Below, one piece after another: positions 2,332-55,714 of a stretch of DNA of 64,000 nt; the first letter of the stretch is position 1; the number at the start of each line of letters is the position of its first letter. The notes under the pieces were generated by a model that saw nothing but the letters and a program-made list of their open reading frames with translations, was not told the origin of the DNA and did not search any database. The position numbers and the translations under genes were made by a program. The stretch is from positions 10,718,409 through 10,782,408 of the forward strand of contig OY987250.1 of NCBI GenBank assembly GCA_963920765.1, read 5' to 3'. The stretch comes from Ulota crispa. Taxonomy: Eukaryota; Streptophyta; Bryopsida; Orthotrichales; Orthotrichaceae.

Positions 2332-4594
2332 TCAGTTGGCATAGAAACTTCTCTTCTCATCATTCTCTGTAAATTGCAATCCAGAGTATCCTAACAAATG
2401 TTTGACGTCAACCTTTACATCTTCCATTGTCATGTCGTTCCAGCTGCTCATCTGGCACAGTATCCACCATGTACTACAGTGAGAATGCCGTGTATTAGGA
2501 GGTTCTGGTTAAAAATCATACGATTGATTACAGAAACACTATGATGTTGAATAAACAGAAAGCGTAACTGCAGCAGTCCATTTGCATAATCGACTTTCTT
2601 CTAACACGGAGCCGAATGTGGAAAGTTACCTTGACAATGAAAGTGCAAGTAACTTTAGTAGAGGAGATGACTACAATGCTGGTGTGGACAACTTCAATCA
2701 CGAAGGACTCGATAGCTTTGCTGAGTTGCACAAGAACACCAGATTGCTGCATACAGATAATGTCTAATTTGTACAATCCATGATCCATTTTGTCGACATC
2801 CAACTGAATCTGTGCACAGCATCCGTGAAATTGAGTTAAAATTGACCACAAGGAACACGCGAGCCTGTAGGTGAGTGACCGCTGTACAAGATCAGAACCC
2901 CAAATGAAAGAACAGTGAATTCTCGCCTCAAACTTGTATTCATCAGCGCCGAAGGGGACGGTTTTCTATCAAGAAGATACGAATCATACGATAGTTCCCA
3001 TGATGCGTCTTAAGTAATCTTGTCATACACTCATGAAGGACGCACAATAAGCCATAAGGATGTAGGACAACCTAAGTGGTCTTCCTGAAGGATTATAGGA
3101 GCCTTAATGAGATATATAATATGAATGAGGTGAAGATGAAGAATCAGTTACTGTAGTGAGTTTCTTGTTGAAGCATTCAGTCAGTTTTTGTCGCTACAAG
3201 GATCCAGGTAGCATGGGTATCGCAATCCATTACGCAAAACCAGTAGACTCATGTAATTGACACTCTTTAAAAGAAATCTAGCTACATTGACTTAATTTGA
3301 TGTCTCCATACAAATTCGTAGCCTGCATGTTCCACATTGGGCAGGAATACTTCAACTTACCTGGTGCAAATTCCATTCTCGACTTGAAGGGCTTGTCTCA
3401 TAATCACAGCGGACTAGCTCATCAGAAACTTCTGAGCAATAAGAGTTGCCCGTTGATGAGTTTTTCTGGTGATCACCTTCGTTTTCAGCATCACTCGTTT
3501 CCAAGTAGTTACAAGAACCCTTGGCCACTTCTGCAGGTTTTCGGTCGGTGCGTAGGTCATCATTAACGTTGACACCTTCACCCTCTAGCAACTCAACTTT
3601 CTGCTTGAGTTCTTGCAAATAATTGATCGCATCTATAAGAATTGACACTTTGTCCATCTGCCACAAACCGACACCCACTTATTATGTGGGCTCATACATT
3701 GGAATTGCTGCCGCAACAACTCCCAAATTGTTTCCTCATTAAGTAACAAATGGCGAGATCAACAATCGCAATTTGTGACCAGCGTCACGTCGTAGACGTT
3801 ACAGAGTCAAGGATAAGCCAACGTACAGAACTCGAATTATGAAAGACCTACTTGGGGAGAATTACGCAATTGATCATGCTACAAATACGAAAACTCAAAG
3901 CTGTTTGTCAAAAATGTTTGAGTCAATGGACGCGGTTGCAAATGGATCCAAAGTTCTGATCACGATCCAACTATTTGCAAAGAAAGTATACACCTGACTT
4001 GTGTCTCACATGGGGAGTTCAGAACTAACCTTCATCGTGAACATTGGAACCAATTCACGCAGAGTGATAAGACCTTTTTGTAATTTTTCTCTCCTCTTTC
4101 GTTCTGATATGAGGTTCTTGGACGCCACCCAGCCATCGGGAGTACCATCTGACACTCGCCGCCGTCTGCCAGTTTTGATCTTCACAACCGGTGCCTCCAC
4201 TTTCTGATGATCGAGTTCCGGTACTATTTCGTCTATGAACGACGCGGTACGATTGGGGATTCTATTACCGGTAACCTGCTGAAGAATCAAAAGGCAACAC
4301 TTAAGGAGTTCTGCTCAGAAGGTCATTGAAAAATTCATTGTAAGCAGATTGGAATTTCAAAACTTGTCCACAATCATATTGTGAATCAACGGACCCAAGC
4401 ACCTCCGGACGTTAAAATTGATTTTTTGTTGGATGGTGAAGTGCACTGACTTGTTCCAGGTGCAGCCATTCTGCTTGATCCAAATCCATTGACACAGCAC
4501 AGTCCCTCATGCTCTTGCAATCATCAAAATCGTCACACAAATTCGCATCTGAAGAGGAGCTCCAGGCCCTTAAGTACGAAGAATTTTGAGCCAT
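2332..4594 (-). CDS. bHLH transcription factor with C-terminal ACT-like domain (five exons)
   Basis: Probable nuclear DNA-binding regulator of the plant bHLH subgroup that includes AMS, DYT1 and FIT. Exons on the minus strand, 5' to 3': 4594-4451, 4278-4030, 3657-3361, 2809-2630 and 2451-2332; all four introns (172, 372, 551, 178 bp) are phase 0 with GT-AG ends, and two donors are AAG|GTTAGT and CAG|GTAAGT. Exon 2 could start 3 bases later. The protein is about 329 aa. The basic region SKNLISERKRREKL lies near residue 101, helix 1 follows, and helix 2 starts MDKVSILIDAINYLQELK at residue 132. An ACT-like fold spans about 231-290 (LYKLDIICMQQSGVLVQL), and the C-terminus includes MTMEDVKVDVKHLLG. 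The start is the first ATG after an in-frame stop at 4705-4703. The usual His of E-box binders is Asn, as in AMS/ICE-type factors. The exact subgroup and function are not settled. Confidence 0.88.
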
Positions 4595-14577: not shown

Positions 14578-15516
14578 TTAACCCCTACAGGACTGAGCCA
14601 TTTTTCAGTGAAAGCACTCAAAATTGCCACTTTTGGGGGTTAGTAAGAAGGTATATTTTTTTGAAAATTTGGGAAATTCAACCATAGGATCTTGTCCTAG
14701 ACTAGATTAGGTACTTGTTGAAAAAAAAATCAAGTCATTCCAAATGGATATGAGTGAGATATTTACATCTAAAGTGAAAAGAAAAGTTTTTTTTCATGTT
14801 GCAACAAAATTTTAGAAGCTTTTGACCATTATTACATGAAAATAATTGCTCTGCGCAACTTTGCGCTTTATTTTCCCCATGTAGGAGATCAAGTTAGTTA
14901 TGTGTGGGAGAATTTTCAAATCAATTGGAACTACTCAACACATAGGAAAAATTAGTAAGTAAAAAGAAGTAGAGAATGAGTCAAATCACTAAATTGTTAA
15001 GATTTAAATTATTAAAATGAAAATTGCAAATCCCAACAATCATAACGTTGTGATAAACAATCTACTTCCTTTGGTTTTGTTTTGTTTTTTCCAAAATAAT
15101 AAAAATTGAGTAAAATAAAGGACTTCAAAGTTTATTTTAGAGTAGAGAATCCATAACTGCCCGCAAACAAAAACTCCTCATAACTTTCATGTCATTGATT
15201 GAAATTTAATGATTCAAAGCTTCTCACCCTAAGAAAAAATCTATAGAACCAATTTCAAATTTTAAATATAAAAAAATTAAAATTTTAAAGAAGTGTTTGG
15301 GCTGCCCAAGCAGGCAATCCTCCCTTGCTTTTCAGATTTTCATGCATAACTTCTTCAATAATTGTCGGAATGAGGAAAAATTAGATGCCCGCATAGATTT
15401 TTGAATTCCCCACCTCTGATAAAAGTTTTAAAAAATCACACAAAATATCTTATCCAAAGGTACATGCCCAAACTCCCACTTGTCCCCCAAAGGGACAATA
15501 GTCCTTTAGGGGTTAA
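14578..15516 (+). mobile_element. Non-autonomous piggyBac-like element, family A (reference copy)
   Basis: TTAA, then CCCCTACAGGACTGAGCC at the left; GGACAATAGTCCTTTAGGGG, then TTAA at the right. 939 bp with no open frame. About the first 370 bp match 39,914-40,290 and about the last 180 bp match 47,690-47,869, the two ends of the transposase-bearing element, so this is best read as an internally deleted copy. Family A copies also lie at 79, 27.87 kb, 48,249 and, as a foldback, 60,855. Confidence 0.82.
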
Positions 15517-18811: not shown

Positions 18812-19764
18812 TTAACCCCTAAAGGACCAAGTGGTTGTTCAACAGCCACTTGAGAACTAAAGTAGGGCCATATGAAGTCATTTCTATTGGATGTTTTCAA
18901 ATTTGTTACACAAAGTGCAAATATGTATCTTGTAAAAGGAGATGTAATTTTTTCCCCAATTGTATGCCCGGTTCAAAAGTTATGTTACCCAAAAGAATTT
19001 GGGCATCTCGGGCAACTTGGGCATCTTTGGAGAATCTTATGCTAAAACTCTCATCAACTTTTGAAATTTGGCAAGTATGTAACTAAAAAAACGTATTGTA
19101 CAATTGTCAAAAAAAAAATTGAACTCTCTCATTACATTCAGAAGGGAATCAAACTTTGTTCTATATTTGTGTCGTTTCAAGAAAAAAAGAATTCCTCTAA
19201 TTTTAGGCTCTATTATCTTTCAATCTATAAATCCAAAACTCTTGAAACTTATTTTCACATATTCCAAATGATTGTCTCTAATTTTTCACCATTCAAGTTT
19301 CAAATAAAAGACCTCATTGCACAAGAAATCATGAAAGAATGACTAATGTATTGCCAATTCACTAAACCTCCTTGCATTGCAAGGTGATTTAGAATAAGCT
19401 AAATTCTATCTTTTGATCTAAAAAATTTCATGAGTGAACCTAACATCATATACTTGTGAATGGTTTAAAAACCCAAATTTGTGTAGAGCAAAAAATTTAC
19501 TCTAGGAAGGCTCAAAGTTTATTGACCTTGTTTTACACAAATGAAAAAAAAGCTATTTTTCTCACTACAAATGTTATAATCTTACAATCCGCGAGGTCAA
19601 AGGGGCTAAATTTTTTTGCACACATTAATTTATCTATTTGACACACTTGTGTACAATTAGAATTGAGAAAAAAAGTTTTTATTTTAAAATTTGGGCAATG
19701 CACTAAAAGTTGACAATTTTTGAGATTTTTTCTCAAAAAACACCCTTGGTCCCCTAGGGGTTAA
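18812..19764. mobile_element. TTAA element (piggyBac-like), family B, 953 bp
   Basis: TTAA, then CCCCTAAAGGACCAAG at the left and CTTGGTCCCCTAGGGG, then TTAA at the right. The interior does not match family A. No transposase frame. Confidence 0.75.
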
Positions 19765-19863: not shown

Positions 19864-20777
19864 TTAACCCTTTAAAGACCACACACATTTTCACAAAATC
19901 CATTAGAAACCGGGGTAGTAAACTTGGATGTGCAATTGAATCAAATTTGACTTGATTTCAATAATCCAACGGTACAAATGGGAACTACACCTAGTTTACT
20001 ATAAAATATCAAAATTTCAACTAGATTTACAATTGGAGATGAAATATTATAATGATTGAGTGATTTGTAGGTGGAAAATCTCTAGTTTTTGTGCTTGTGT
20101 GGTTTTGGATCTTACTACTTCATACAAGCTTTGTTTGAGAAGAGCCTTATATTTCTAGAAAGCAGGGTTTCTCAACTTTCCAATGAGACTAGTTTCACAC
20201 AAAATGGATTAAAATAGCAATCACAAGGTGTAGCTAAGTGGACAAAAAGGGTCAAAAATCCCACTTTATTTGCTACCCAAAAATATGTTTACAAGAAAAT
20301 TGATAAATGCTATGGAAAATCCAATTGGTGAAAATAATAAAGAATTGGCCTTAAATGTAGGACAACAAACTTTTAATATGAAATGATAGCACCATTTCAA
20401 TAGATCTTCAAATATTACAACTATACTACTACTGTATAGAAAAACAATACAAGCATATTTTTTGAGGAGTTTGAAATTTTGTAAGACCACACAATTGAGA
20501 TTTGACATTCTTCTTGGATGTTTGATGTATTGTGTTGTTGCTTTGATCCATCTTTGACCAAATATGGATACATGTTTTGAGGCCATGCCGTATAAACATC
20601 ATTATTTATCAACTCACATGCCTGATTTCATTGTTTTTTATTTGGTTGGATGCAAAATTCTTGTGAACACAAGCGTTTTTTCAAGTCCGGTTTCCAAATT
20701 GTTGAATGATTTTACTCTATAAGCCAAAGACCACTCTCTCGAACCAAAATATGGTTTGGTGGTCTCTAAAAGGTTAA
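19864..20777. mobile_element. TTAA element (piggyBac-like), family D, 914 bp
   Basis: TTAA, then CCCTTTAAAGACCAC; right end GTGGTCTCTAAAAGG, then TTAA. The right TTAA (20,774-20,777) is also the left TTAA of the next element. Confidence 0.75.
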
Positions 20778-21430
20778 CCCCTAAATGCCCAAGTGACCAG
20801 ATTTGGGTTGCGAGGAAACTTTGCAGATGAATAAAACCTTATCAAATCATTATTTTTAGTTTTTTTTTTTTTTTTCAATATAAGTTTGTTATGAAGTTTA
20901 CTTTCAACATCAAAAATCCAATTTTGAAAATGAAAACTGATGGTTTTCTACTTGAGATTTGTACAAGGGTGTCCACTGCAATCTTGAGTTTTCTAGTATT
21001 GGAAGATCTTGAAAATGAGCCTCAAATATAGTAGAGCTTGGAGAAAAATCCACATTAAAAATCCATTTAAAAATAATTTAGAAGTAGATTTTCAAAACCA
21101 TAAATTGATTTGAGTTAGACATGTAATGACCTTTAACCTCATATTTTTATGGTGACCAACTTTTTGGATTTGACATGTGAAATGAGGATTGAAAGACTTT
21201 AAGTCACTTTTGCAATTTTAACACCCTCATGTTCAAACATTATAATCTTTCAAACTATAAGTGATATTGTTGTGTTTTCTTTCTCCATGTAATCTTTAAC
21301 ATGTTTAGCTTAAATTTCTACGGTTACAATTGAAAAAAACTTGATTGAATTCATGAAGAGATTGATTGATTGTTCAAGTTTCATGAAAATTCCAAGAAGC
21401 TCAAATAGGGCTTGGGCATTTAGGGGTTAA
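20774..21430 (+). mobile_element. TTAA element (piggyBac-like), family C, 657 bp
   Basis: TTAA, then CCCCTAAATGCCCAAG; right end CTTGGGCATTTAGGGG, then TTAA. Interior motifs (gcctcaaatatagtagagct, agtgatattgttgtgttttc) recur at 57,981-58,629 and, inverted, at 55,711-56,343. It abuts the family D element and shares one TTAA with it. Confidence 0.8.
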
Positions 21431-23727: not shown

Positions 23728-24318
23728 AGACCTCACTAAACGGAGTGTCATCTAACGATTCTAACTCCAGCTGCGTGGCATACGCGTTGACAGAAATTGT
23801 ATGCCGCCAGGTACACTGTATTTCTTGTATGGTTGCCACCCATCAGTCACCAGTCTCCGTGTTATTATCCATCACAAGATATTATTTTCCTGCCATGCCG
23901 GGGCTTCAAGGGTTTTTGTGGCTTTAGCTTGTGATGCACTGATGCCCAATTGCCCATGCGTATGATCCCGTGTTTTGTCCTAGTATGTAGTTAGACCACT
24001 TATTACCGGGCGTCTTCCTAAAAGCGAGACCAAAATTTAATCCCTAAATGTTAGAAAGGTTGTATATATGGTGCCATATACTTGGCATTTGCTACTAACA
24101 AGAAATTTTAACTTGGGATCTCAAATACCTCTCTAGAACTGCATTTATCTATATTCCAACTTCTTTGTTGATCTCAAATGTAGTAGAGGTAAGGATCCAT
24201 TCCAAATACAAGAAAATATGCCATATTGTACTGGTCACAAAGGGCTGTTCTAACGTTTAGGGATTAAAAAGCATGTTCTATGAAATACAATAGGTCGTCA
24301 AAGCCACTTGTACTTGAG
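23728..24318. other. Intergenic DNA, no gene seen
   Basis: 23,730-23,980 has higher GC and short open frames that resemble nothing I know; the rest is AT-rich. Confidence 0.4.
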
Positions 24319-31350: not shown

Positions 31351-31851
31351 TGTCGAGTAGAAAAGAACGTGCTTTGGAAACATTTGGGGTATCTGACTGC
31401 AATTGTCTCAGTGAATCAAACAAGAAACAATATGCATACAATCACTATCAAAGTAACTCTCCAAGATGATTAAAACATAAGAGAACAAATCACATGAAAA
31501 TATGAATCAAGGTATATGAAAACATACTGTGGTTTCAATGAACAACCTCTTTCAAGTAGGATTTCAAATATATATTATAGAAAGAAAAAATAAAAATAGA
31601 AGGTCCTCCTCTACCAAAATTATACTCAAAGTCCTTCTAAACCATTGGTTTACAAATCCCTTTTAGAATATACTTTAAGAAACTCCAATTAACTAACATT
31701 TCTAAAATGATGTTGCCTCATTAAAACCTTATCTAGGAAAACCTTACTAATCAATGACAAAACTGCAAATAAAGGAAAAAAAGTACAACACTTTATATAT
31801 ACTATAGACTAACAATTTTATTTGTTTTTAATATATGCCGTGATTTACATC
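31351..31851 (-). repeat. LTR (downstream copy of the Ty3/gypsy element)
   Basis: Direct repeat of 38,072-38,580. A purine-rich tract (ggaaggggcgaatg on the minus strand) borders it internally, as expected of a polypurine tract. Confidence 0.85.
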
Positions 31852-34800
31852 TTGACATTCGCCCCTTCCAAACCTGCATATCCTCCGGTATGTGCCAAGT
31901 TCAATTATCTTTACCACCTTGATTGTCTTCAACCACACCTTTCATGCCTTCATCATTTTCTTCAGCTGCTTGACCATTATCTATACTTTCTAGATAAAAA
32001 ATTCTTTCAAAGTCTTCAAGATGAAATGATTTATTCCGTCAAAAAACTTTAATCTGCTCTCCAGCTACAAACACGTGTAGAGAAGTCCCATCCAATTCTC
32101 GAAGTGAATAAGTGCCATTGATGTGCACTTTGATTACTACATAAAGTCTATACCACCTTTTTGCAAATTTGTGTACTGTACTGTATTGATGTTCCAATGT
32201 GCTATCAAATACAATGATCCAATCACCTTTTTTAGTCAATTTTATCTTCAATCAATGCGACTTGTCAAATCGCTTTTTGTTGATGAGTCTAGCAGCTTTC
32301 ATCTTCTCCAATGCAATATCAACGTTCTTTAGCAACCTTCCAAGTTGTTGAATACAAAACTCCAATAACCTTTCTCTGCTTATGTCATCCTCCCATGAAA
32401 AAAACACCCGCATAGGAATATTTTCCTCTACTGGTATAATTGATTTTTGACCATACATAAGCTCTACAAACATGAAACCGATAATCGTACTATGTGTGGT
32501 TCTATCAACCCATAAAGCAAATGGCAATAACTTTGGCCACATACTAGGTTTACCTTTACAAGCTTTAATAAGAGCATGAATAACTGGAGGATGTCCTCTC
32601 TCAATCTTACCATTGGTCTTAGAATTGTAAATTGTTGTAAAAATAATTGCATACCATAACGTTAAAATTTTTTTTTGGCATGAATAGCATTTAATTTCCC
32701 TCTGTCCGCTTTCATTTGGCCAATGCTATCATATCAATTGAAAATATCCTCAAGAATAAACTGGTATACATTTTCCATTGCTTTGGTCCTCAAAGCTCTT
32801 TTTTCAATAAAATTAGAAAGTTTCTCTTATGCCAAAACTAGATACTTTATTCTCCACATTGCATTTGGTATAGCAACTAAATCAATTATCCATTGAAAAT
32901 GAATTGCCAAAGGGTTAGTAAGATGTAACTCATCTCTGTGCCGCATTTTTTATTGTAATTGGCACACTATGCAAGAAGCCACAAATTCTTCAGCATCCTT
33001 GTATAACCCTTTCCACCAATACATCTCATTGATTTTTGTGTAAGTGGCCTAAATACGTTTGTGACCAGCCCAAAATATATCATAAAATTCTTCTAAAACT
33101 TTAATCTTGTTTTAAAATTCTCTACCATTCTCAATGATACTTTTTTAGCTCTTTTTGCTTTTTTCCATAGAAATCATTTTCTAAAAAATATCCATATGAT
33201 TGGCGTTTAATGTCCTTAAATGCTTTATTCATCTAGCCTTCATGCTGCTTTAATGTACTCAAATATAGCATAATATCTCTAAACCTTCATTCATATAGTT
33301 TAGATTAAAAAGGCAATACATGAGTAACAGAGCTTTCACCATCGATCCTTGCCATATAACCTCCTTGCAATAAATTTTCAATACTTTCATATCTTATCAT
33401 TTCCTCTTCATTGAAATACCTTACTCTAGATAACATATCAGCAATAAAATTCCTTTTACCTTCAAAATGAAATAAAACTGGATTCAATGATTTAATATAT
33501 GCTATCCCTTGAAGCATTGCAATGTTTGGTGAAAAACAATTTGCTACCATCCCTAGCAAAAGCAAGCAGTTAATCTCTAATACAACATCCACTCTAATCA
33601 AATAATTTTTCTCTGCCTTCAGAGCTGTAAGAGCACTCTATAGCTCTCTCTTCACTTGCAGATATGCCCTTTGATGCTTTTTTAAAATCATTGCTCCAAA
33701 TTGGATAGCAAATCTCCTCCCATTCTCATCATTTTATTTAACAACCCATCCTAAAGCAATTAGACTTGTGTCTACAGTCACTATCACCGGTCTCTTGCAT
33801 TTGTAATTCACTTGCTTAAGAATTGGCGGTAACTCCAAAATCTTCTTGAACTCTTCCATAGCCAAATTTTGCTTATTTTCCCAGATAAATTTCCCCCCCT
33901 TACGTAATAATTTGTATAGAGGCTCTGATACATTATCAAAATGAGGAATCCATATGAGATAAAAGATACCAGCTCCAAAAAAACCTCCTTATTTTACTAA
34001 TATTGTTACAAGCTTTCATCCGCCCAATTGCATTAACCTTTTTAGAATTAGATTTCCTTCCATAAGAACCACATAAATGTCCAATCACCAAAATTTTATT
34101 CACCCAAATTTTGATATATCAATTGAAAAAGTCAAACTTACCTCTTCAAGTTTGCTCAAGATTTTATCCATATTACTAATGTGGTTGCTTACAAATGCTT
34201 GGCAACCATCACTTTGAAGGATCAAATCTCTTATTTTCTCCTTGCAACCTTTCATTGGAATATCATCTACAAAAGATATAGTCTTCTCAGGCACAAAATC
34301 TTTCAAAATTTAATTTATAGCGTTTTGCATATGTGCCACCAAATTGGTAGTACACTGGGGCAAAGTGCACATTTGCACCAATCCAAGAGAAGTGTTTATG
34401 ATTGTCAAATCCCTGCTTTTGGCAGCTAGTTAGAATTAATCATAACCAGAATACAAATTTTTAATAGAATAAATTGCATGATCAGCAAATGCTTTTGCCA
34501 CTTCATCAACAACTAGACCTGATTTTTTGTTCATAATTGTCACTTTATCGGCAGGTTGCATATCTTGGATGAACCTCAATGCTCCTGATTTCTTTGGCAT
34601 GATGAACTATCAGTTTGAATATAGAGTCATTGAAAGCTCAAATATATCCATGCATGGCTCTTTTTTAAGCAGCTCTACTAACTTTGGAAATAAAGCTCTA
34701 GGCACTGGTATAGGCTTCAAATCTCAAAGTACATAAAGAACTGTAAATATAATCATTGGCACCACAATACTTGGTTGCACACATTCAATTTCATTTGATA

Positions 34801-37800
34801 AAGAAGCAAAAAAAAATTTATGCATTGCAAGCATATGTTGAAATTTCTTTTTTCCAACTCAGTCAAAAATCCACCTCCTCCAATCTTCAAATTCGCTAAA
34901 GCCACTTTAGTAAATTTGTCTCCAATCTTTCTACTCTTCTTCAAATTTGGTTCTTTCTTAGCTTGCTTGATATGATCATTAGTATCAAACGATAGTTGAG
35001 CAATCACTAGCTTCACATTTTTTGCCATAGTCTTGTATTTTGTATAAACCTTAATTTTTGATATCTGTCCATCAACCCTGTAATAACACAACTTTATCAA
35101 CGCTGTGGAAATCTTATGATGCATTGCAGCTGTATGGACATTAATAAAACAATGAATATCCCTATTCATATCCTCATCTTTCTCTAACTCTTGTAAAGTT
35201 TACAAGACATTATTTGGCATACTACTCTTTTCATAAATACCAGAAATGCTCTCCTCTTTTTCTAAAACCTTTAATTTTTTTAGGTTTTTTTCTTCCATTT
35301 TTACTAACCTTCTATCTATATAATTTAGGTCTTTGATATTTTTACAACTCACAAGCCCATTCTTTGTCACACTTAAAAATTCACACTTAGCAGTTGTATA
35401 CGCATTGGGAAATATTTCAACTTCATTGTCAGTGGCATGCGTGAACTCTCGTATCCCACGTGTGCCCATTAAAAATCTGGAAAGTTTAAAAAAGTTGGAA
35501 GAGAAATTTCTTTAAGCTGCAATTAATGCTTTTCATTTTTAGATCTCACAGTCAAAAATTGCACAAATTTTTTTCCATCAATACATCAAATTTGAGCGTA
35601 GTGAGATCCATCATCCAACACTTTAGTCTCTATTTGCGAAGTGGTAATGAAAGGCTGACCTAAAATAACTGGATATGCTCCAGAAAGTGAACAAATTTTT
35701 TTATTCAACTTCCACATTTCTAATCTTTATTGACACCAAAGGACATGCTCTATACAATTGACTTTGTCCGTTGTTAACCGCCCTCATTACAAAGTCATGA
35801 TCCGTATTGATTAGCCACTTGTTCTTTTCATAAATCTTCCAAGATACAATATTGATTTCTAAACCATGGTCCACAATAATTAAATCATATTTGTCTAACC
35901 CACTAACTTTCACCATAGTTTTGATAGTAGCTCTAACCCAATATGGTTGGTGAAAGTCAGACTCAATATCATAAATTTTAATGACAGAATTGTCATACCT
36001 GAAATCAAAGATTTTAATTTCCACTTTTGTTAGATTGTCATCAATCGCCTCAATCTCCAGTTCAATCTTCACCATCTTTACGTTAATAACTTTTTTAACT
36101 GGAACCATCGGATCTTCCATCATGGCAAATACTTTATCAATCTTGATCTCTTCATCTTTGGTTATGTGAGTGTCTAAAACACTCACTTCCACCGACTCCG
36201 TTATCATCCGTCTTTTCCTCTTAATGATGTCAATGATCAACTTATAGAAATTATTTTTAGCTATGCTAAGAACTTCTTGTAAAGTGAATTTGATCTTGGC
36301 ATCCAAAACCCTTTCCTCCAATATTCCCTTCAAATTAGTAAAAATTTTAATGTCTGATTATAGCTTATAGGTAGGAGTTTTCATCTTTAACTTGCTAAAA
36401 TTGATTCTATTAGAATCTATTTTGTTGACACAAGATTGCTACCACTTTTTCCCTAAAAGCGGTGTATCACCAGGATGTATAATACTGGATCATGTGTCCT
36501 TGAACGTGTCATAACTTTATGCTTCAATTTCTTTGCATTATCTTTTTTTGCTTGAGGTTTTTTTATTTTTTATGATGGCTCTTTAATATCTTCAATCTCT
36601 ATCCTTCTATGTTTCTTTTCAACTAAAGCCTCATAGTAACTAATGTTTGTTTGACCTTTCTCTAATAATGTTTGTTTGACCTTTCTCTAAAAAAGTTTTG
36701 ATGCTCATTATACCAACTGAATCTTTCCACCTAGTTACACTCCTGATGACTTTTGCTCCTCGCTTCATTAATGTCAATAGTTGAATAGGTGAGGCACTAA
36801 TCGAATGCTGTTTCACCTCAATATGATATGTTTTGGCTTTCCGCACATGTATAAAGTTAGAACGTCACATTTTTTCCTCCATAAGTTTTTTCATCCCTCC
36901 TTTGCCATAGTTAGTATTTATTGGCAACTTTGTGAACGCATCATGAAGCTTGTTGTTAATAAACTCAACATTCTTATCTTTCAAAGCTTTGGTAAAATCC
37001 GCACAATCTCAAAAACAATGTCTACCATCTTGTTCACCCTTATTACACCACATATATTTCCATGAAAATGATCTTCTTCCATCAAATAATTGTGAAGAGC
37101 CAAATACCTTAGATTTTAGTAATTCAATCATCTCCACCTTCAGTTCTTTGAAACTTTTGATGAATTCATTAATATTGTTCCTTTTATTTGCCTTGGTAGT
37201 CTTTAAGATGGATCCTACAACTGTAGAAGATGAAAGAGCAAATGAAACTTTGGAACTTCTTGAAGATTGAACTTGCTCAGTATTCACTTTCGCTCTACTT
37301 CCTCTTAACTTTGCACATTGTTGCTTGGCCAATAAAGTCACGGTTTCTTCCATCCTCCTCCAATTGTTGGTAAATCTTTTTCTGTATTGCGATATCCAAA
37401 TAGCAAAAAAAATTTATCCTCTAATGCAGCATCAACTACTTGAAAAAAGAACTTTGCCTTCTTGGTATATAACATGAGCTTCTCTGTCATGGGTAACTGA
37501 ACAAACTTCTTCTCGAAGTCTTTGAGCAACTCATAAGCATCCATATTGTCTCTTAGCTGCTACTCTACCCACTCAAAAAAAGCCCTTTTAGTTATCCTCT
37601 CCGCATCATTATCAAAATATTTGTCTTATAATTATTCAGCAAAAGCAGTCTAGGTATGAACCCCTCTGCGGATCTCTCTCACTTGATTACAAATATTGGA
37701 TTTGACTGCTATGTTGAAAGTTGTCATCATTTCATTTTCATCGATTTAATGTACCTCCATCTTACAAACATAAAACCGCAAGAACTTGGATATATTCTTG

Positions 37801-38071
37801 CCGTCAATCCTTCTGCTTTTTGCAACAATCGCCTTCAACGCTTTAGTGGCTATTTGTTCACCTTTGTTTGCACGATGCTGCTCCATAAATGGAGCCAAAG
37901 CCCCTAGAAGGTCCTCCATAGGCACTTGAGCTCCACTCCCACCTCTTACATTAGCGCCAAGAATTTCTTCAGGCACCTCAGAACCACTAGCACCGCTGGC
38001 ACTCTCTTTATTGTCTCCCATATTACCAACTTCAACAAATGCCTCAAAGCTCTCTCAGTGGAAGCACCAAA

Positions 38072-38580
38072 TGTCGGGTAGAGAGGAGCCCGCTTTGGGA
38101 ACACTCGGGGTGTCTGGTTGCAACTGTCTTAGTAAATCAAGTGAGAGACAATATACACACAATCACTATCAACGTAACTCTCCAAGATGATTAAAACATA
38201 AGAGAACAAATCACATGAAAATATGAATCAAGGTATACAAAAATATATTGTGGTTTCAATGAATAACCTCTTCCAAGTAGGATTTCAAATATATACTATG
38301 GAGAGAGATAATAAAAGTAGAAGGTCCTCCTCTACCAAAATTATACTCCAAAGTAAAAGTCCTTCTAAACCATTGGTTTACAAATCCCTTTTAGAATATA
38401 CTTTAAGGAATTCCAATTAACTAATATTTCTAAAAAAATGTTGCCTCATTAAAACCTTATCCGGAAAAACCTCATTAATCAATGACAAAATCGCAAATAA
38501 AGGAAAAAGAGTACAACACCTCACATATACTATAAACTAACAATTTTATTTGTTTTTAGTATATGCCGTGATTTATATCA
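38072..38580 (-). repeat. LTR (upstream copy of the Ty3/gypsy element)
   Basis: Direct repeat of 31,351-31,851; most differences appear to be transitions. Confidence 0.85.
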
Positions 38581-38938: not shown

Positions 38939-39642
38939 TTAATCCCTAAATGCCCAATTGACCATTTTTTTGTTGTTGCCTTTTTTTGCGGGTTGCCTAA
39001 GATGAAAAAAAACATTTTTTGAACAAACCAAAAAATTAATCTACTTTCCAACCCAACTTGAATCTTGTCAATCCAAGTTATACTCCATCACTAGAAGAAA
39101 CCTTGTGTTTTTCATAACAAATTTTTTTAGATGTTTACTTGTTTTTATGTTACAATTGATGTGAAAATTAACATCCTGATGTTATGTTTGATGTCATTGT
39201 AATATAAAAACAAGTGGACATCCAAAAAAATTTGTTATAAAAAACATAGGTTTCTTTTAGTGCATCAAGGAGAACTTTTCAAAGACAAACACTTCAATAT
39301 TTGCTAGTAATACAAAATTTAGTATTTTGAAAAACTAATGATGTTCTCTCCTTCAAAAAGGTTGCATTTTTGAACTTTAGAATAAAGCATCTTTTTCTAA
39401 CCAATCATACTAATTTTTAAGTTCTATGAATAAAATTTGTAAATTTGATGAATATTAAATGATAAATGCTTCTGAATTCATTAAATAAGAGTCATTTTTT
39501 CTGAGTGTTTGACCATATGAATAATTATTGAACATCATGATTCTTGTTTTCTTTTTTGAAACAAACTTCATCAAAGTTACAAAAGTATTATTTTATAATG
39601 CATTTATATTTTGCCCTTATCCCTTGGGCGTTTAGGGGTTAA
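38939..39642. mobile_element. TTAA element (piggyBac-like), family E, with nested MITE
   Basis: TTAA, then TCCCTAAATGCCCAATTG; right end CCCTTGGGCGTTTAGGGG, then TTAA. It aligns with 55,143-55,714 in the same orientation, except for the 174-bp CACTA-type MITE at 39,089-39,262. Confidence 0.8.
39089..39262. mobile_element. CACTA-type MITE, 174 bp, CAT duplication
   Basis: Starts CACTAGAAGAAACC and ends GGTTTCTTTTAGTG, flanked on both sides by CAT. The interior is near-palindromic. It is absent from the sister copy of the host element at 55,143. Confidence 0.85.
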
Positions 39643-40422
39643 GCTATTGCTACCCTAGCCATCTTCAAATTTTTGGGCCATTTACTGATCTCGATTGATT
39701 TTCAACTTAATTGATAAAATTAACTGAATTGTTAAAGCTTAAATTTAATTGAGCTATATACCAAGAATTTGTTGTTGCCTTTTCATTCTTTAAAATTCAT
39801 AGAGTTTAGGTACTTATTTATTGCTTTAATTAAGTGAATTTTACCATACAAATCATATCGCAATATAAAAAAATGTCACCTAAAACATTGAATTTGGTGT
39901 TTTTGCATGCGAATTAACCCCTGAAGGACTGTGGCATTATTTCTGCAAATTTCAGTGAAAATTGCCACTTTTGGAAGAGTGAGTAGGATAATAATTTAAA
40001 ATAATAATGATTGAAATCCAATTGTAAGATCCTTACTTAGACTACAAGAACTACTTATTTTGAAAAAAATAGGTAATTTCAAATTGTGAGCAGCGAGATA
40101 TTTACATCAAAAGTGGAAACAATTTTTTTTTGGGACTGTCCAAAATTTTCAGAAGCCTTTGACCATTGTTATATCAAAAAAATTACTCTACACAAAGTTG
40201 AGGTTTTTTTTATCCATGTTCAAAATCAAGTTAGGTACGTATGGGAGAATTTTCAAATCAATTGGAAATACACAACATACTTCTAAAAATCCTACAACGC
40301 TGCAAGGTTTAGAAATTTACAAATACACTAAGCAAAATTGGAGGTTTTGCCAAAAATTCAAAAAAAAGATTGAACACAATCAACACGGTGAAAACATAAA
40401 GTGATTACTACTTTACCGTTTC

Positions 40423-40423
<1 letters not shown>

Positions 40424-40456
<33 letters not shown>
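40424..40456 (+). repeat. Poly-A run, 33 bases
   Basis: Uninterrupted A run just inside the left terminal region of the piggyBac element. It could mark the tail of a retroposed insert, but no target duplication was recognised. Confidence 0.95.
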
Positions 40457-40458
<2 letters not shown>

Positions 40459-40619
40459 CTATGGAGAGTAATGAAAATGCTTGAAATACACAATTTTACT
40501 TTAGGCAGATGCAATGTAGAATTGAAGATACCACAAAATGGATTCACTGCACACCCATTTTGTCCCCATGCATCTAGTAAATGTCCTGCATGTGGTGTCA
40601 TTGGTGTGTGACCTACGGT

Positions 40620-40965
40620 CATTTTCCAACCAGGGCCTGGTTGGCTGTGCTAGTCGCTCATGCTACTGATGTGGCCGCTGCAGGCGGTTCACCCGCTCAT
40701 GCCATTCCGTCGAGCACTTAGGCAAGGCCAATCGGTGCCGGTGCCGAGCTAGCCCGCACTCCCGCAGCGCCGCACCCCTGCAGCTCCACTACTCTGCCTT
40801 GCCACGACCACCTGCGATGTAACTTCCCCCCTGCCAAGTGTTACAGTGATACTGGTCAGCTCACTTTCACCTCTTGTTACTTCATTCTACAACCAAGTAA
40901 CTTTAGTTGCTGCTGCTCATCCAGTTACTGGTATTGGTGCTAGTTCAGGGAGTGTGCTGGTCTAG
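40620..40965. other. GC-rich block inside the piggyBac element
   Basis: Much higher GC than anything around it (ggccgctgcaggcggttcac). Short Ala- and Cys-rich frames on the plus strand resemble nothing I know. It could be captured host DNA or 3' non-coding sequence of the transposase transcript. Confidence 0.4.
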
Positions 40966-43696
40966 GGTGCTGGCTCCAGTAGCATAACCACAGACATTAG
41001 AAATGTGAAAGTATCGTACAGCCATAGGGTTATAATTTATTCTCCATTGTTTTCTGCACCAGAAACTAATTTATAACTAGCATGGCATTGTTGTTTACAA
41101 AATAAAATTCCAATAATTGCCACATAGGAATATAAAGGGTAGTGTTAGGGAAGTGTAAGAAGAACTTACGATAAAATATTTTCTCTTAAATAAGATTTTC
41201 ATGATATTTGTGGAAACACCCCTTCTTCCAACATATGAATTTGTTCCCACATGAGGGACAATATGTTTTGGGGTGTATGAGGGGTAGTGACCCATCATTA
41301 CAAACAACACAAGAGCGCTTTGTAGTAGTAGTTGCCGGGTAGCACACCTTCTTCCCCTTTGCATAAGATACAAGTGCTATAGAATCCCAATTTTGGGTGA
41401 GAGCTTCACATAATTGGGTTCTAAATTGAAGATGTGTCATCAATTTACGCAGAGGCAATTGGGTTTTACACTTGTCAAGGTATATTACATACATATTCAT
41501 AACCGTTGTGTCAATGAGGAAGAAAAATACTCAATGCCACCACTTGTGAGACCAAGTTTGGCAAAAGTAAGACTTGCGGAGTTGATTTGCCACATTAACA
41601 CTGCTTATATGCATCGTATACTCTAGGTGGATAGGGGATGTGACAATGTTCTCCCGAATTGCACCATTCTGCCGTAGAACCATGGCAATGGGAAACTTAC
41701 CAGAACACTGCACTAGTACGGCATGCGTAGAGATAATGCGCACTAGCATTTTGTCCTTCCAGACAATAGCATTGATACCTCTCAACTGGTGCATATGCTA
41801 TTTTAAAGATTCCTATGGTGATTTTGCAAACGCTTTAGTGTTTGTCAACACTAAAAAAAGGCCAATCCTATTAGCCCAAACTTTACTTGTGACATAAATC
41901 TTCTTTTCTCGCATCTCTAAAAATAAAGATATGCTTGTAAAGAAGTTATTCATAGCAAGAACATGACCACATCCCTCATGTAAGGCCAACAATCTCAAGA
42001 CAACATTATGGGCTAATTGTGGATGACCTCAGGGTGCTACTCTATTTGATACTGCAGCTTGATCCTTTCCGCAGAAAATTTTGAAATTCACCATAAACTT
42101 TGATATGAAATCTACAAGGCACCAAATCTTGATCCCCCACTTCTGCGGCTTCTGTGGCATATATTGCCTAACCGGGCAATAAGATCCCTTGTAACGTATT
42201 ATCATCTTGTCTATTGCACCAAATTTCCCAATATTCTAAGCCGAGTGACAACTAACCCTAATTGCATCAATAAGCCATCTCAACTGGCCTATCTTATCAT
42301 AATCAAGTAGGCTTCTATCATGGACATACTTGGCCGGGTTTGTCACATATAAACATTTTGTTAACAATGCAAATCAAGCCCTTGACATAAGCCTTGTAAT
42401 AATGGAGCAATGAAATATGGATCCCTTCTTCTGCCAATATAATTTGATATTGGGTTGCCTCTTTAACCCCATATACATAATGATAGCCATGTATACTTGT
42501 AGTTCCTTTACGTAACAAGGTGTCCACAAAGAGGTCGTTTTGCATTGGCTGTTAGCATCCAATGTGTTTGCATGTCTATTGGTTTCCGTCACAATGTCCC
42601 TAAGGACATGGAAGGGCCAGAAAATGTCAAATAACTGCATGAACGTTGGGAAAAGACGCCATGACACCTTAAAAAAAGATTCACCTATGAATTGGGTGGG
42701 TTTGGGATCATAGGTCATAAAGTCTTGCGTCCATGCCTCATCATGAAAGTTGAACTTGAAGTTGTTATAATGCCCCTAGCCATCATGACTATCAATACTA
42801 TCTTCATCACTCAATGATAAATCTTGGATGTTTGGATGGCTGCCACTGTTGTCATTAGAAAATAACAGTCCTTGGATAATTCTTGGAGAACTAGGAAAAC
42901 CATAGAAATCCAAGGGCATATTCCCTTGCAATCCTATTGACCCACTAGCATGTCCTAACGGACCTGTATGTCAATCACAATAAATTCCAATGCTTAGTAT
43001 GACTCATACAGTACATTACAAAAACAAAAAACATAAGAAAACAGATGCCAATTTCCTCCAAGTAATGATGGCAGACTTAGTGGAACTACATCTATATAAA
43101 GGCAACAATCTAATGTCATAAACTCTAGAATGACATCAATGTATAATTTACAAATACCGTCATTGCATTCATTGAGAGCATGACTGCAACTACCTACATC
43201 ACATCATACTCATAATCCAATTACCATAGTCTGTATGCCTTCACATGTAATTCATTTTTTTATTCCTAAGCTATTCTCTCATTTCCTGAAAGTAGTCATC
43301 ATATTAGCCATGTACAGAAAATTATCGTAATCATGATTATAATCTAATGCTCCGATATACTTCACTCTCTCACAAACTGAAACAGTCGAAAAAAAAAATC
43401 TCCAGCCCTCTAAATCTCACTGCCCCATACCATACCCATGTATGTTTATTATTTATGAAGGCATGTATGTTTATTATTTATGAAGGCCAAGTGCAATTTT
43501 CGAAGTTTATACTTTCATACAAAACCAAAGAATAAAATTAAAAATTATTATGTGACGAATTAGAAATTAGTGTTCAATAACTTCACCGAATTCATTATAT
43601 AAGTGGTTGCAAAGAAAATAACAGAGATATTGTTTACGTCCAGAAATTCAAAAAAATAATGAGGCACTGTCATTATCACATGTGGTACATAGATTT

Positions 43697-44540
43697 GGGG
43701 TTGACATGTCTAGCACACCCTCTCAACTATTATACCACTCACTCGTGATAAAAAATAGGGGACATTACAAATAGGGGTATGAAAATGAAAAATATTATAA
43801 ATATGAGCGTAATTTCAAAATAATTACAAATAGGGGTGCAATTTTAAAATAATTTGTAAATTTTTGTATTTTTTTGGTTTGGATATTGGTTGATTTTGGT
43901 ATATCACATTAAATGTTAGCTAACTTCTAAAAAATTTCAAGGCCTCTCCAAATAAAGCCTAAGTAAAGAGGTTATAGTGAAGAGGACGGCAATTTTTAGA
44001 AATGCGTTTGAGTTTCTAGATAGTTCAATAGAATTTCATATGATGTCTAAATCAACCAATGTCCAAAGAAAAAAAAACAACACATGATTTTGAACTTGCG
44101 CTTGTATTTGTACTTATTTTGAAACTATGCCCCTATATGTAATATTTCTCATTTTCATTCTCCTTTTTGTAATGACCCATAATAAATATATTTCTACCAT
44201 GAAGTACTTGTATATCAGACTTTGGAATTCAGATTCACACTTCAAGACCTTGAGTTTGTGTAGAACCATGAGAAAAAATTGGGATGTCACAATATCCAAT
44301 GAATAAGCTTCTTGTCTCTAAAAACAACAATAAAAGTAAACCTTCTCTCCCAAGCTAAGCTTTTCCATTGGGTGTTGGTCAATTGCAAGTTTTTTTTATG
44401 GTTTTAGACAAAACCAATGTCTCTACTTCCAAATCCAAGATCCAAATTCTCAAATACAACTACTTGATGGTAGAAATAAAAAATTTATCACGGGTGTGTG
44501 GTGTAATAGTTGAAAGGGCGTGCTAGGCATGTCAATCCCC
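43697..44540. mobile_element. Element with long inverted ends in the transposase intron
   Basis: About 55 bp at the left (ggggttgacatgtctagcac ... caactattataccac) is repeated inverted at the right (gtggtgtaatagttgaaagg ... gtgctaggcatgtcaatccc). It encloses a smaller MITE at about 43,758-44,178. No coding potential. Confidence 0.65.
43758..44178. mobile_element. MITE, ATTACAAATAGGGG family, copy 1
   Basis: Left end gggacattacaaataggggt; right end inverted, with ctttttgtaatgaccc and gaaactatgcccctatatgt. It matches the copy at 45,412-45,855 in structure. Confidence 0.65.
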
Positions 44541-45411
44541 TATAAAATTTCTACCAACTGATAATACAACATAAGTGCTTATACTTATGTCCAGTAGTAC
44601 AAATTGATCATTACAAAGAGCAAAATGAAGGTGTATATTTAAAAAATTAGAGTAATTTTTTTGGTCTAATGGTGAGGTTGTAGAAGATGCCAAATTCTAT
44701 CAATAAAAATATCAAAGGCATGTCAATCAGATTTTGAGAAATTTGAAATATTCCAATAACTTGTCCTTGACTTTTGAACAATCTCAATTAGCACAAAAGT
44801 CACGGTACCCTTCGTGAACTCTATTTTCATCTCCTACATTGCACATACAATTGAAGGGAATGTGTAATAAAGTATTTGTTCAACAGAAATACATATGTCC
44901 TAAATGTTTCATCATGTAGTGCTATTGCAATAAATCTATTCTGCCATTGTACAATCAGCACGTGATATGGATTACTATATGTTTTGCCAATAGCAGTTCC
45001 TAGTAAATCTCAAAAACTATTACCATGTCACAGTAAACTTCACAGCATGTGCATGGTTATATTTTCTGCTTGATTCTGCAAAAGCAAAGGTGAATTGTGC
45101 TTTCATAGTGTGCAATTCTTCTTATCAAATATGAAATGAAAATCCAAATCCCAATGTCTAACACATTCTATGAAATACTAGAAATTGTGGTGAGGTATAA
45201 AATTTTCAAGGCACCCATACAGAAAGCATTATAATATGATTCATAATTGTAATTGAATCCAAATAAACAATGACATGCAGAGAATGAAAAAAAATAAATC
45301 ATATTTCAATAATTGCAATACATATATTGACTAAATCCTTCAAATACGTAATCACTAATTGAAATACACCATATACTCCTACACAACAAGTGATGGAAAA
45401 TCACATAATAC

Positions 45412-45855
45412 TTGGGGAGATTACAAATACGGGCATGAAAATGAAAAGTATTTCCACTAGGGGAACAGTTCAAAATAATTACAAATAGCGGCGCAATTGC
45501 AAAGTAATTTGATTTTTTTTTTTTTTTTTTTTTTTGGGTTTGGACATTGGTTGACATAAATATATACATCACATAAAATATTACGTAACTTCCAAAAACT
45601 TGAAAGGCCTCTCCAAATGAACCCTAAATTTAAAAAAAATACCAAATTGGAAGGCAATTTCTAGGAAGACCTCTAAGTTTTTGGAAGTTAGCTTACATTT
45701 GATGTGATATATGTTTATCAAGCAATCTTCAAATCTAAAAAAATTACAAAAAGTCAGATATCATTTTCAAATTCCGCTTCAATGTAATTATTTTGAAATT
45801 GTGCCCCTATTTGTAATATTTATCAATTCCATGGCACTAATTATAATCCCCCCCC
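45412..45855. mobile_element. MITE, ATTACAAATAGGGG family, copy 2, 8-bp duplication
   Basis: Left end ttggggagattacaaatacg; right end inverted, with gtgcccctatttgtaatatt and a run of C. CATAATAC flanks both sides (45,404-45,411 and 45,856-45,863), an 8-bp duplication typical of hAT elements. A T run lies inside at about 45,510-45,535. Confidence 0.75.
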
Positions 45856-46784
45856 CATAATACACTCAAAAGTATGTAAACCTAAATAATGAAATAACAA
45901 AGGAACAATGAGAATAAAAAATAAAAAAAATAACTCCAACGGCCTTACTTGCGACATTGGGCAGTCTATCTTTGATTTGGGCCCCTGCTCCCAAAATGGC
46001 TGGGATGTCGATGCCTGCTCTACTAGCGCTGAAGGGCCGATGCAGCAAATCCTCTACGCCGTCAATGAGGCCGCGCCTTTGAACGACTGCCCTCCCATTG
46101 TCACTGTGTGACTCATCCGGTACCAGCTTCGGGACGGTGACCTTGGTATGCATCCCCGCGCTCCCACCGCCACCACTGCTGTCTTCATGAACTTGACATT
46201 GCCTGCATGCTTGTTGACGCGGATAGTGACGAGCTAAACCGTCAACGTTGTGCAACATTTTAGGTGGCCACATGAATGCCTCCAACAATTTTGCCTCCTC
46301 AACAAACAAGTCTTCATCTTTGAACTCATCCTTCATAAACTCATGAGAAGAGGACTCTAGATTTGCATGGAGTGGGTCTTGACTGTCGAAATAATTAGCG
46401 TCATAATCTCCAATGATGTCTCAAAAAATGTGTGTCAATGAGTTCCCTCTCCTCACATGAAGCTGGAGGAACAAAAGTGGGAGTTGGTAAGTCATTGCAT
46501 GGAGGCAATCTCTCAAGTTGTTGAGGACTTGCACTCTTGCTAAGAGGGGATGGATTCTCCTTTTGTGATGACTTTTGGCCAAGGAGATGGCAACTACGCC
46601 TCACCAGAAGTCCATCCAACTCCACCTGCAAGTTCCATTTTTGTGTTATAAGTACACAAAGAAGAATGTGAGAATAGAAACAAAAAATTGAAAAAGAATA
46701 ATGAGCATGAGAATTTCTGAAATGTTCTTGAATCCAACAACTCACATCATTGTGGGAAGCTTTCCCTACTCTATGCCTTGGCAT

Positions 46785-47650
46785 GATGTGTGCAATGAGG
46801 AAGGGAGCTCAATCAAGATGCAATTCTCAATAACACAAAACACAGAAATTTCTACTATGGTTTAAGTGGCAACAGGGAGACATAAAATCCACATGCAAAA
46901 CACCACAAGCAAAACACAACTAGCAAAACACCATGTGAAGCAAGAGAAGGTGGCCAATGCTAAAAATATGAAATTTTTTCAACGAAGCAACTTTGCAAGT
47001 GGTGTACACGACTCACAGTTCATGAGAATAGCTCTTTCAACTTTTTGAACATGCAAGAAGTCAATGCAAAATCTATAAATAGCCACTACAAATCAATTGT
47101 GCACTATGGTAATCTAAACTTTCAATCTCTAACATAAATGTCAACACCCTAAAAATTACAATGTCGATGCTTCCTTCAATTTGCATTCTAGCGCCACTAT
47201 TCGCATTGTCTTGACCAAGCGTCGACGCACCAAAACCCTCCCGCACCTCCCGGTTGCAGACAAAACCCTAAAACCACCCGTCAGTCGGCAACACCCAACT
47301 GTAGGTCCCCGCAGCTCTAGGAGGCCATTGTTTTGCAATGCAACCGCGTTGACCGGAACCGCTGCACATACCTCCCAGTGCAAACCGCACCGTATCTGCT
47401 GCTCTTGTCGCTCCGCAAAGCTCCCGGCACTCCCACGCAACTCCTGTGCATATCTGTTGCAGGCGGCGTCCCCAAAATTGGGCAACTTGTCAGCAAAAGT
47501 TTGGCCCTCTTCCCCCTTCTCCTTGCTATTTTGGAATGTCAAACCGGGTAACCCCAAAAATAAACCCTCCCTCCTCTACCCACTAAATGTTCTTTCTCTG
47601 CCTTTCTGATCTGCCCACCTATACAGTCAACTCTCCAATACAAAGGGAGT
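46785..47650. other. Upstream part of the piggyBac element, with GC-rich block
   Basis: 47,160-47,600 is GC-rich and open on both strands (about 133-142 codons), but no frame resembles a known protein. By position it could be the promoter and leader of the transposase, or captured host DNA. Confidence 0.4.
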
Positions 47651-48248
47651 GGCTGCCTAAACTGCCTAAGAGTCCTTTGTTTTTTGAAAATTCACTCATA
47701 ACTTCTTCATCTTCTATTGGAATGGACTAAAGATTTCATGCACACGTAGATCTTTGAATTCCTCACCTTCAGTAAACATTTTGAAAAATCTCAGAAAGTA
47801 GTTTAGCTATAGGTACATGCCCGAAATCCAAAATGTCCCTCAAAGGGACAACGGTCCTTTAGAGGATAATAAGATGCTCTTGGTCATGTACGGTTGAAAG
47901 AAACTATTCATGAAAATTTCAAACAACTCTTATGGAAATCATTAACACAACAAAGAAATTCATATGAGATGTGGAAATAACAAATATTACCCAAAAAAAG
48001 CATTTTCTTAGATAGTGAGGTTTGTGTGTGCAAAAACAAATTCAATCTGAAGTTACACTTGTCTGGTCTTTTTATACCCTTGAACATCCCTTTTATAAAG
48101 CATTGGGTGTCAAGCATTGAGTGTTTGTTGGTCACTTGAAATTTAAAATTCAAAGAAGGGGGAGGGAGAGGAAAGGTAGGGAAAAAGCAAGTAGAAGGTC
48201 ACATGTAATTTGAAGGGGAGGGATGGGAAAGGGAGGGTGAAAAGTCCT

Positions 48249-49168
48249 TTAACCTCTAAAGGACTAGACCCCCTTTTTTAGAAACATATCAATTTTAGGC
48301 AGGTACCTGTGATTGGAGCTTTTCATATTTTAGGCTGAAATTTTAATATAATGTGGGGACAAGGTTTTTCTTTCATATGCACTAAATTTCATGACATTTG
48401 GAATCATGAGTAAAAAGCTATGACCTAACATGTTGTTTTTTACGTTCGGCAAGCAGCTTGGGCAAATTTTTAAAAATCACTTTTTTCTAAAACAAAATTT
48501 TAAAATGGATTTAGGAGATTTATGTGAATGTATGAAGCTTTGAACCATTATGTCTCAATCAACAAGATGAGAGTTATGAGGATTTTTTGTTTGCAAGCAG
48601 TTATGGATTCTCTACTCCAAAATAAACTTTGAAGTCCTTTATTTTACTCAATTTTCAACATTTTGGAAAAAGAACAAAACCGAAGGATGAATGTTGTTTA
48701 TGAAAACATTATGACCATTGGGATTGGCATTTTTCATTTTCATAATTAAATTCTTAACAATTTTGTGTTTTGAATCATTCTCTACTTCTTTTTACTTACT
48801 AATTATTTTCCATGTGTTATACAACTCCAAATGATTTGAAACTTTTTGACATGTACTTTATATAGGTGGAATAAAGAATTTAGAGAAGCACCACCCACAT
48901 GGCATGTTTTCTTTAGGAATTTCACCTACTAAAGGGTAGCTGCCCAGTTTTCACAAGACGTTTTTGAATATTCAAATCATTCTAACTTCCAATCCACGTG
49001 GTGGAAAACTCTGAAAGTTTTTCCACATCTTCTAAAACCATTCTTCTACAAGATCCTACAGTCACATATGCATAAAAATGTTTTTGTTTTCAAATTTGGT
49101 TGACGCTCTAAAAATGACATTTTTGAAGAGTTTTTGGTGAAAGCTTTGCTTGGTCCTTTAGGGGTTAA
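48249..49168 (-). mobile_element. Non-autonomous piggyBac-like element, family A, inverted, 920 bp
   Basis: TTAA, then CCTCTAAAGGACTAGACC; right end GCTTGGTCCTTTAGGGG, then TTAA. Its right part, read in reverse, carries gtgaaagcactcaaaa-like and ctgtaggatcttgt-like motifs of the family A left end. Confidence 0.78.
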
Positions 49169-55142: not shown

Positions 55143-55714
55143 TTAACCCCTAAACACCCAATCAATCATTTTTTGGTCGCTGTCTTTTTTTGCAAATTGC
55201 CTAAAATGAAAAAAGAAAAGCAAAAAGAAAAGAAAAGAATTTTTTTTGAAAAAATTAAAAATATTCTTATATAGGAAGGCAAATCTACTTTCCAATTCAA
55301 TTTGAATCATGCCAATCCAAGTTAAACTCCACCAAGGAAATTTTTTCAAAGACTAACACTTCAATATTTGCTAGTGTAACAAAATTTACTATTTCAAAAA
55401 ATTAATGAAGTTCTCTCCATAAAAAATATTGCGTTTTTGGGCTTTCAAATAGAATGTTTATTTTTAACTAATCATACCAAATTTTAAACTTTGTGAATAA
55501 AATTTGTAATTTTGATTAATGTTAAATGGTAAATGCTTCTAAATTCATCAAATAAGAGTGCAAAACGTTTTTTGATTATTTGACCGTATGGATCATTACT
55601 AAACATCATGATTCTAGTTTTTTCTTTTTCAACAAACTTCATAGAAGTTACAAAAGCATCATTTTAAAATGCATTTATGTTTTGCCCTTACCCCCTTGGG
55701 TGTTTAGGGGTTAA
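55143..55714. mobile_element. TTAA element (piggyBac-like), family E, 572 bp
   Basis: TTAA, then CCCCTAAACACCCAATCAA; right end CCTTGGGTGTTTAGGGG, then TTAA. It aligns with 38,939-39,642 minus its nested MITE. Its right TTAA is shared with the next element. Confidence 0.8.

Follow-up and report, generated by a model that had tools for sequence, protein, structure and literature searches.

DNA transposons of the piggyBac superfamily are known mainly from animals. The element of Trichoplusia ni (T. ni; IFP2, PDB 6x67) is recorded at 2,472 bp with one ORF of 594 residues, targets TTAA and has short terminal repeats. The published descriptions of insect piggyBac elements give complete bee elements as 2.23-3.52 kb and beetle families as 2.1-3.2 kb, again with TTAA sites, short terminal repeats and a DDD transposase. 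Another animal enzyme is piggyBat (PDB 9c0f), the hosts of which we take to be bats. For land plants the entries carrying the PiggyBac label are traces: the repeat table of the fern Ceratopteris lists 1,230 copies at 0.00% (PMC6890710) and that of the grass Stipa a single copy of 75 bp (PMC8319324), in both tables without described elements, and a 2025 paper refers to piggyBac as 'occasional' in plants. Among the matches listed in the open-licence full-text literature we found no description of piggyBac in a moss, and a Niphotrichum moss paper contains the string 'piggybac' twice, one occurrence being 'piggybacking'. Because the superfamily is rarely described in plants, the moss element presented here is notable.

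We analyzed a stretch of 64,000 nucleotides (the window) from chromosome 9 of the moss Ulota crispa, whose genome note reports 11 chromosomes and 275.00 Mb (PMC11803377). We are highly confident that positions 39,914-47,869 form a defunct DNA transposon of the piggyBac superfamily. An earlier sequence-only reading had proposed an 8-kb element with these coordinates, and they hold, given that two sister copies, on chromosome 1 (L079, 8,023 bp) and chromosome 5 (L080, 7,958 bp), align with it over the full 8 kb. The features of the element are as follows.

39914..47869, minus strand (transposase strand): whole piggyBac element, 7,956 bp; end-to-end alignment with both sisters and sharp ends in genome searches
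39914..39931, plus strand: left terminus TTAACCCCTGAAGGACTG, which departs from the common TTAACCCCTAAAGGACCG at two bases; TTAA at 39,914
47852..47869, minus strand: right terminus TTATCCTCTAAAGGACCG; TTAA decayed to TTAT (minus strand), TTAA in both sisters
46746..46784, minus strand: putative exon 1, 13 codons from ATG; donor GTGAGT (GTGAGC in one sister) in three of three copies
45949..46625, minus strand: putative exon 2 of about 226 codons, including an acidic stretch; acceptor TTGCAG and donor GTAAG in three of three copies; one frameshift in the window copy
42964..45948, minus strand: putative intron 2, 2,985 bp, phase 1; splice motifs in the sisters, two inverted-repeat units inside
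41186..42963, minus strand: exon 3, encoding the catalytic domain and the Cys/His tail; interrupted by seven premature stops, with Asn replacing Asp at two of the three catalytic positions

The frame at 42,963-41,186 matches PF13843 (DDE_Tnp_1_7) at 1.5e-52; its score is 179.5 bits, where the family cut-off is 22.4, and the genome search gave 180.9 bits. A single-sequence search of the PDB with exon 3 of the window copy finds T. ni piggyBac (1.2e-13) and piggyBat (1.9e-5), and a profile of seven moss copies finds piggyBat as the best match (1.1e-46) and T. ni piggyBac at 1e-43. These protein searches bear out the proposed piggyBac assignment, and the concern that the transposase might group with another superfamily fell away. 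The D, D, D positions of T. ni piggyBac align with the moss profile. Exon 3 ends in a C-x2-C ... C-x2-C ... C ... H pattern; T. ni piggyBac also has a Cys/His tail, as does piggyBat, to which the pattern was aligned by eye in a weak segment of the alignment. Among the motifs originally read from the sequence, the first catalytic Asp and the Cys/His tail stand, but the 'DN-FFTS' and 'VDxxDQ' blocks are degenerate in the window copy, since they read MNNFFTS and VNVANQ, with Asn in place of the second and third catalytic Asp. The catalytic blocks are intact in other copies, such as the divergent L003 (IDEMM, LDNFFSS, VDVADQ). Looking for relatives outside the genome gave 23 pattern matches in viral contigs and 73 in prokaryote genome contigs, none of them confirmed as relatives.

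At the ends of all three copies TTAAC or TTATC precedes a motif of the CCCTAAAGG type, and in genome searches with the two 500-bp ends the copies found stop at the identical terminal base. Both sisters carry TTAA at both ends and the window copy an exact TTAA at one of two, so the clear TTAA ends first described apply to the left end, the right end reading TTAT. In the terminal inverted repeat 19 of 24 end bases agree in each sister and 16 of 24 in the window copy. The two ends fold unremarkably as single strands (z -1.22 and -0.30), and the idea that they form special hairpins was dropped.

A split gene of three exons is supported, with both introns: the predicted splice sites of the 120-bp intron 1 and of intron 2 recur in the sisters, which favors the long, phase-matched intron and upstream exons that had been proposed. 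The position of intron 1 is matched in L003 (37% identity in exon 2, 48% in exon 3), where a candidate splice acceptor lies at the same place before exon 2. In the chromosome 1 sister the exon-2 frame is intact save for one stop, and its protein has 43 matches in the genome, merged into 36 places, with 30% to 59% identity outside the three sisters. Of these 36 places, 11 are followed on the same strand, no more than 6 kb downstream, by a PF13843 match; the other 25 have no PF13843 match listed, in a search that scored 116 of 528 candidates. The acceptor in L003 and the conservation of exon 2 in divergent copies argue for an old split gene. Elsewhere, L081 (chromosome 1, 1,180,200-1,182,500) is a divergent piggyBac transposase in which an apparent intron splits the catalytic domain; both domain pieces are open and the frame changes near the tail.

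The window copy differs from its two sisters by 13.5% and 13.4%, and the sisters differ from each other by 8.1%. In exon 3 of the window copy, seven premature stops precede the one at 41,188 that is probably the natural stop; the chromosome 1 sister has nine stops and a shift near the end of this frame, and the chromosome 5 sister has 20 stops. Selection acted on exon 3 before the lineages of the window copy and of its sisters separated: dN/dS between them is 0.41 and 0.38, compared with 0.64-0.99 for the same pairs when the intron is read in three frames. Between the sisters it is 0.58, a value that the intron readings of this pair (0.55-0.71) bracket, and hence no selection is visible on those branches. 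Transitions per site on the window branch amount to 0.250 in CG, 0.207 in CHG and 0.071 in CHH context, and on every branch CG and CHG transitions are about two to four times those in CHH. This excess of C-to-T changes fits methylated plant DNA, methylation being what the pattern suggests.

Across chromosomes 1-11, PF13843 has at least 120 matches, some of which are pieces of one copy. A tree of twelve moss stretches and the two PDB animal enzymes (L080 and L083 left out) contains three moss groups with support of 100/100, 100/99 and 99/99 and a fourth with 89/89, and the presence of at least three deep piggyBac lineages in the Ulota crispa genome is strongly supported. Three pairs of PF13843 matches in opposite orientation have equal or near-equal scores (chromosome 7 at 18.20/18.22 Mb, chromosome 2 at 36.77/36.78 Mb and chromosome 10 at 0.68/0.79 Mb) and are perhaps inverted segmental duplications or assembly palindromes.

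Besides the 8-kb element, the window is rich in short elements bounded by TTAA. A 14-base terminus motif, with one mismatch allowed, occurs 16 times against 0.20 expected, and the window, which was not chosen by similarity, holds nine terminus pairs, seven with exact TTAA on both sides. The seven miniature elements, listed below, make up 4,976 bp or 7.8% of the window.

14578..15516, unstranded: non-autonomous TTAA-bounded element with both ends as in the 8-kb element (73% over 371 bp, 74% over 197 bp)
18812..19764, unstranded: TTAA-bounded miniature element with a CCCCTAAAGG-type end, without interior similarity to the 8-kb element
20774..21430, unstranded: TTAA-bounded miniature element with a perfect 20-bp terminal repeat, without interior similarity to the 8-kb element
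24037..24267, unstranded: TTAA-bounded miniature element with weaker ends
38939..39642, unstranded: TTAA-bounded miniature element; 271 bp separate it from the left end of the 8-kb element
48249..49168, unstranded: TTAA-bounded miniature element; 379 bp separate it from the right end of the 8-kb element
55143..55714, unstranded: TTAA-bounded miniature element

Such ends abound in the genome. Exact TTAACCCCTAAA termini number 30,972, compared with 77 for the reversed control, and TTAACCCCTAAAGGACC occurs exactly 8,154 times, compared with 0 for the reversed pattern; CCCCTAAAGGACC occurs 9,597 times (control 3), with TTAA directly before it in 8,154 of the 9,597. The window is ordinary in this respect, with 9 exact termini in 64 kb against approximately 7 per 64 kb genome-wide. 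The TTAACCCCTAAA motif contains CCCTAAA, the plant telomere unit. At the loci examined it also occurs in inverted pairs, 68 distinct ones within 1.5 kb, of which 56 have TTAA at both ends and 49 measure 880-990 bp, rates that are biased because the motif used includes TTAA and the loci were mostly chosen by similarity. Eight other transposase domains were checked and had no termini within 1.5 kb. For non-autonomous relatives, rather than for the 8-kb element itself, empty sites were seen: the joined flanks of one miniature element (L027:1005-1961) match an uninterrupted 120 bp of another locus, L031, with 83% identity and one TTAA, which is what a TTAA-duplicating insertion leaves, and the elements of L032 and L055 appear nested likewise in other miniature elements.

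Other features of the window fared unevenly. The neighboring bHLH-ACT gene of the sequence-only reading is represented by a bHLH exon that is real but weak (4,009-4,209, minus strand; PF00010 E 8.8e-4), its 19.5 bits being just below the cut-off of 20.7. The Stowaway element was not borne out, a Stowaway-like terminus giving 6 matches against 2.14 expected, all with two or three mismatches. An LTR retrotransposon occupies 31,351-38,579, with direct repeats at 31,351-31,851 and 38,072-38,579 that are 88-92% alike; its minus-strand frames look gypsy-like by eye, and four of them matched no Pfam family at 0.01. Neither the Rfam nor the tRNA scan of the window yielded anything at its threshold.

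Two alternatives concern the gene itself. Its exon structure, together with the purifying selection on exon 3 between the window copy and its sisters, could instead point to domestication of a piggyBac gene. However, the seven premature stops, the loss of catalytic Asp and the presence of full-length copies, their termini conserved, at three places leave this reading practically no credence, and a domesticated PGBD-type gene in the sense of an intact frame without mobile ends is refuted for the window copy by the stops and the mobile-element ends. For intron 2, most of the 3 kb could stem from later repeat insertion into a short or absent intron, which would make the 8-kb size secondary. The intron does contain two inverted-repeat units, related to each other, each about 430 bp long and probably nested miniature elements (43,756-44,181 and about 45,407-45,853), and in L003 exon 2 is just 0.96 kb from the catalytic domain. 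L003 is nevertheless one of 11 places with exon 2 and a downstream domain, and at the other ten the gap is 3.3-5.6 kb, which suggests that intron 2 has long been of this length in all of them; between copies the intron is, moreover, as well conserved as the exons. We therefore prefer an old long intron and consider late expansion somewhat unlikely.

The remaining alternatives concern origin. Given that piggyBac is chiefly an animal superfamily, for which horizontal spread is often proposed, and that the tree has animal enzymes as its only references, the element might be a recent acquisition from an animal or a contaminant and not part of a resident plant family. The host points the other way. 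The best PDB matches of PsaA and PsaB on the plastid contig are 7ksq, 6l35 and 8htu, which we take to be Physcomitrium photosystem I, and because moss photosystem I is matched best the contig is that of a moss. (Plastid psaA/psaB fragments are numerous in the nuclear chromosomes, 46 of 48 PF00223 matches lying outside the plastid contig.) The land-plant host first suspected thus proved to be a moss, and the worry that the contig could be contamination or non-plant was not upheld, the element being on a moss chromosome with relatives on all eleven chromosomes of a chromosome-scale assembly. The moss transposases, moreover, differ down to 28-29% identity between lineages and have 19-26% identity to the animal enzymes (19-26% in the domain for piggyBat, about 20-26% for T. 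ni piggyBac), yet all twelve lie on one side of a 99/98 branch, a split in which the animal rows are long branches and which 37 of 500 label shuffles equal. A recent arrival is accordingly quite improbable, and a resident family is preferred. As for the miniature elements, most of those with TTAACCCCTAAA ends could belong to another TTAA-targeting superfamily with ends that are merely piggyBac-like, and of the window's nine terminus pairs eight indeed lack interior similarity to the 8-kb element, the remaining one sharing both ends with that element. In the wider, largely similarity-picked set, however, 42 of 54 examined elements share both ends with it, two numerous groups of 25 and 18 members among those examined have both of its ends, and PF13843 transposases are plentiful and varied in this genome. 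We judge a foreign superfamily unlikely and regard the miniature elements as relatives that the transposase of the 8-kb family may have moved, as their shared ends suggest.

The living element would have carried a three-exon, minus-strand gene for a transposase of roughly 830 residues, in the order short exon 1, acidic exon 2, 3-kb intron, and catalytic domain with Cys/His tail. Splicing is predicted from the motifs, and the enzyme would have cut and inserted at TTAA in the manner of piggyBac. The family and its relatives would then have spread through the genome, spawning many shorter, gene-less elements with the same ends, before the copies decayed with the excess of C-to-T in CG and CHG context. 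In contrast to T. ni piggyBac and to the insect elements as described, the moss element is approximately 8 kb long and split, with a three-exon gene and, in exon 2, an additional region; piggyBat differs from it in its animal host. The Ceratopteris and Stipa entries share a land-plant host and the PiggyBac label, but amount to traces in their tables, whereas Ulota crispa has tens of thousands of termini. As plant piggyBac is little described, we class the element as a piggyBac of differing architecture from a little-described host group.

More tentatively, and at odds somewhat short of even, mosses may have their own old, intron-bearing piggyBac branch that diversified in plants, grew to about 8 kb with its gene split and seeded miniature elements amounting to several percent of the genome, a share roughly guessed from the 7.8% cover of the window and the similar terminus density. 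If many divergent piggyBac families and very numerous TTAA-bounded derivatives do reside in a moss, the range of the superfamily widens, its phylogeny would gain a plant branch, and the element would illustrate how a piggyBac came to be split and 8 kb long. The results also suggest that the repeat annotation of mosses may be overlooking a large class II component.
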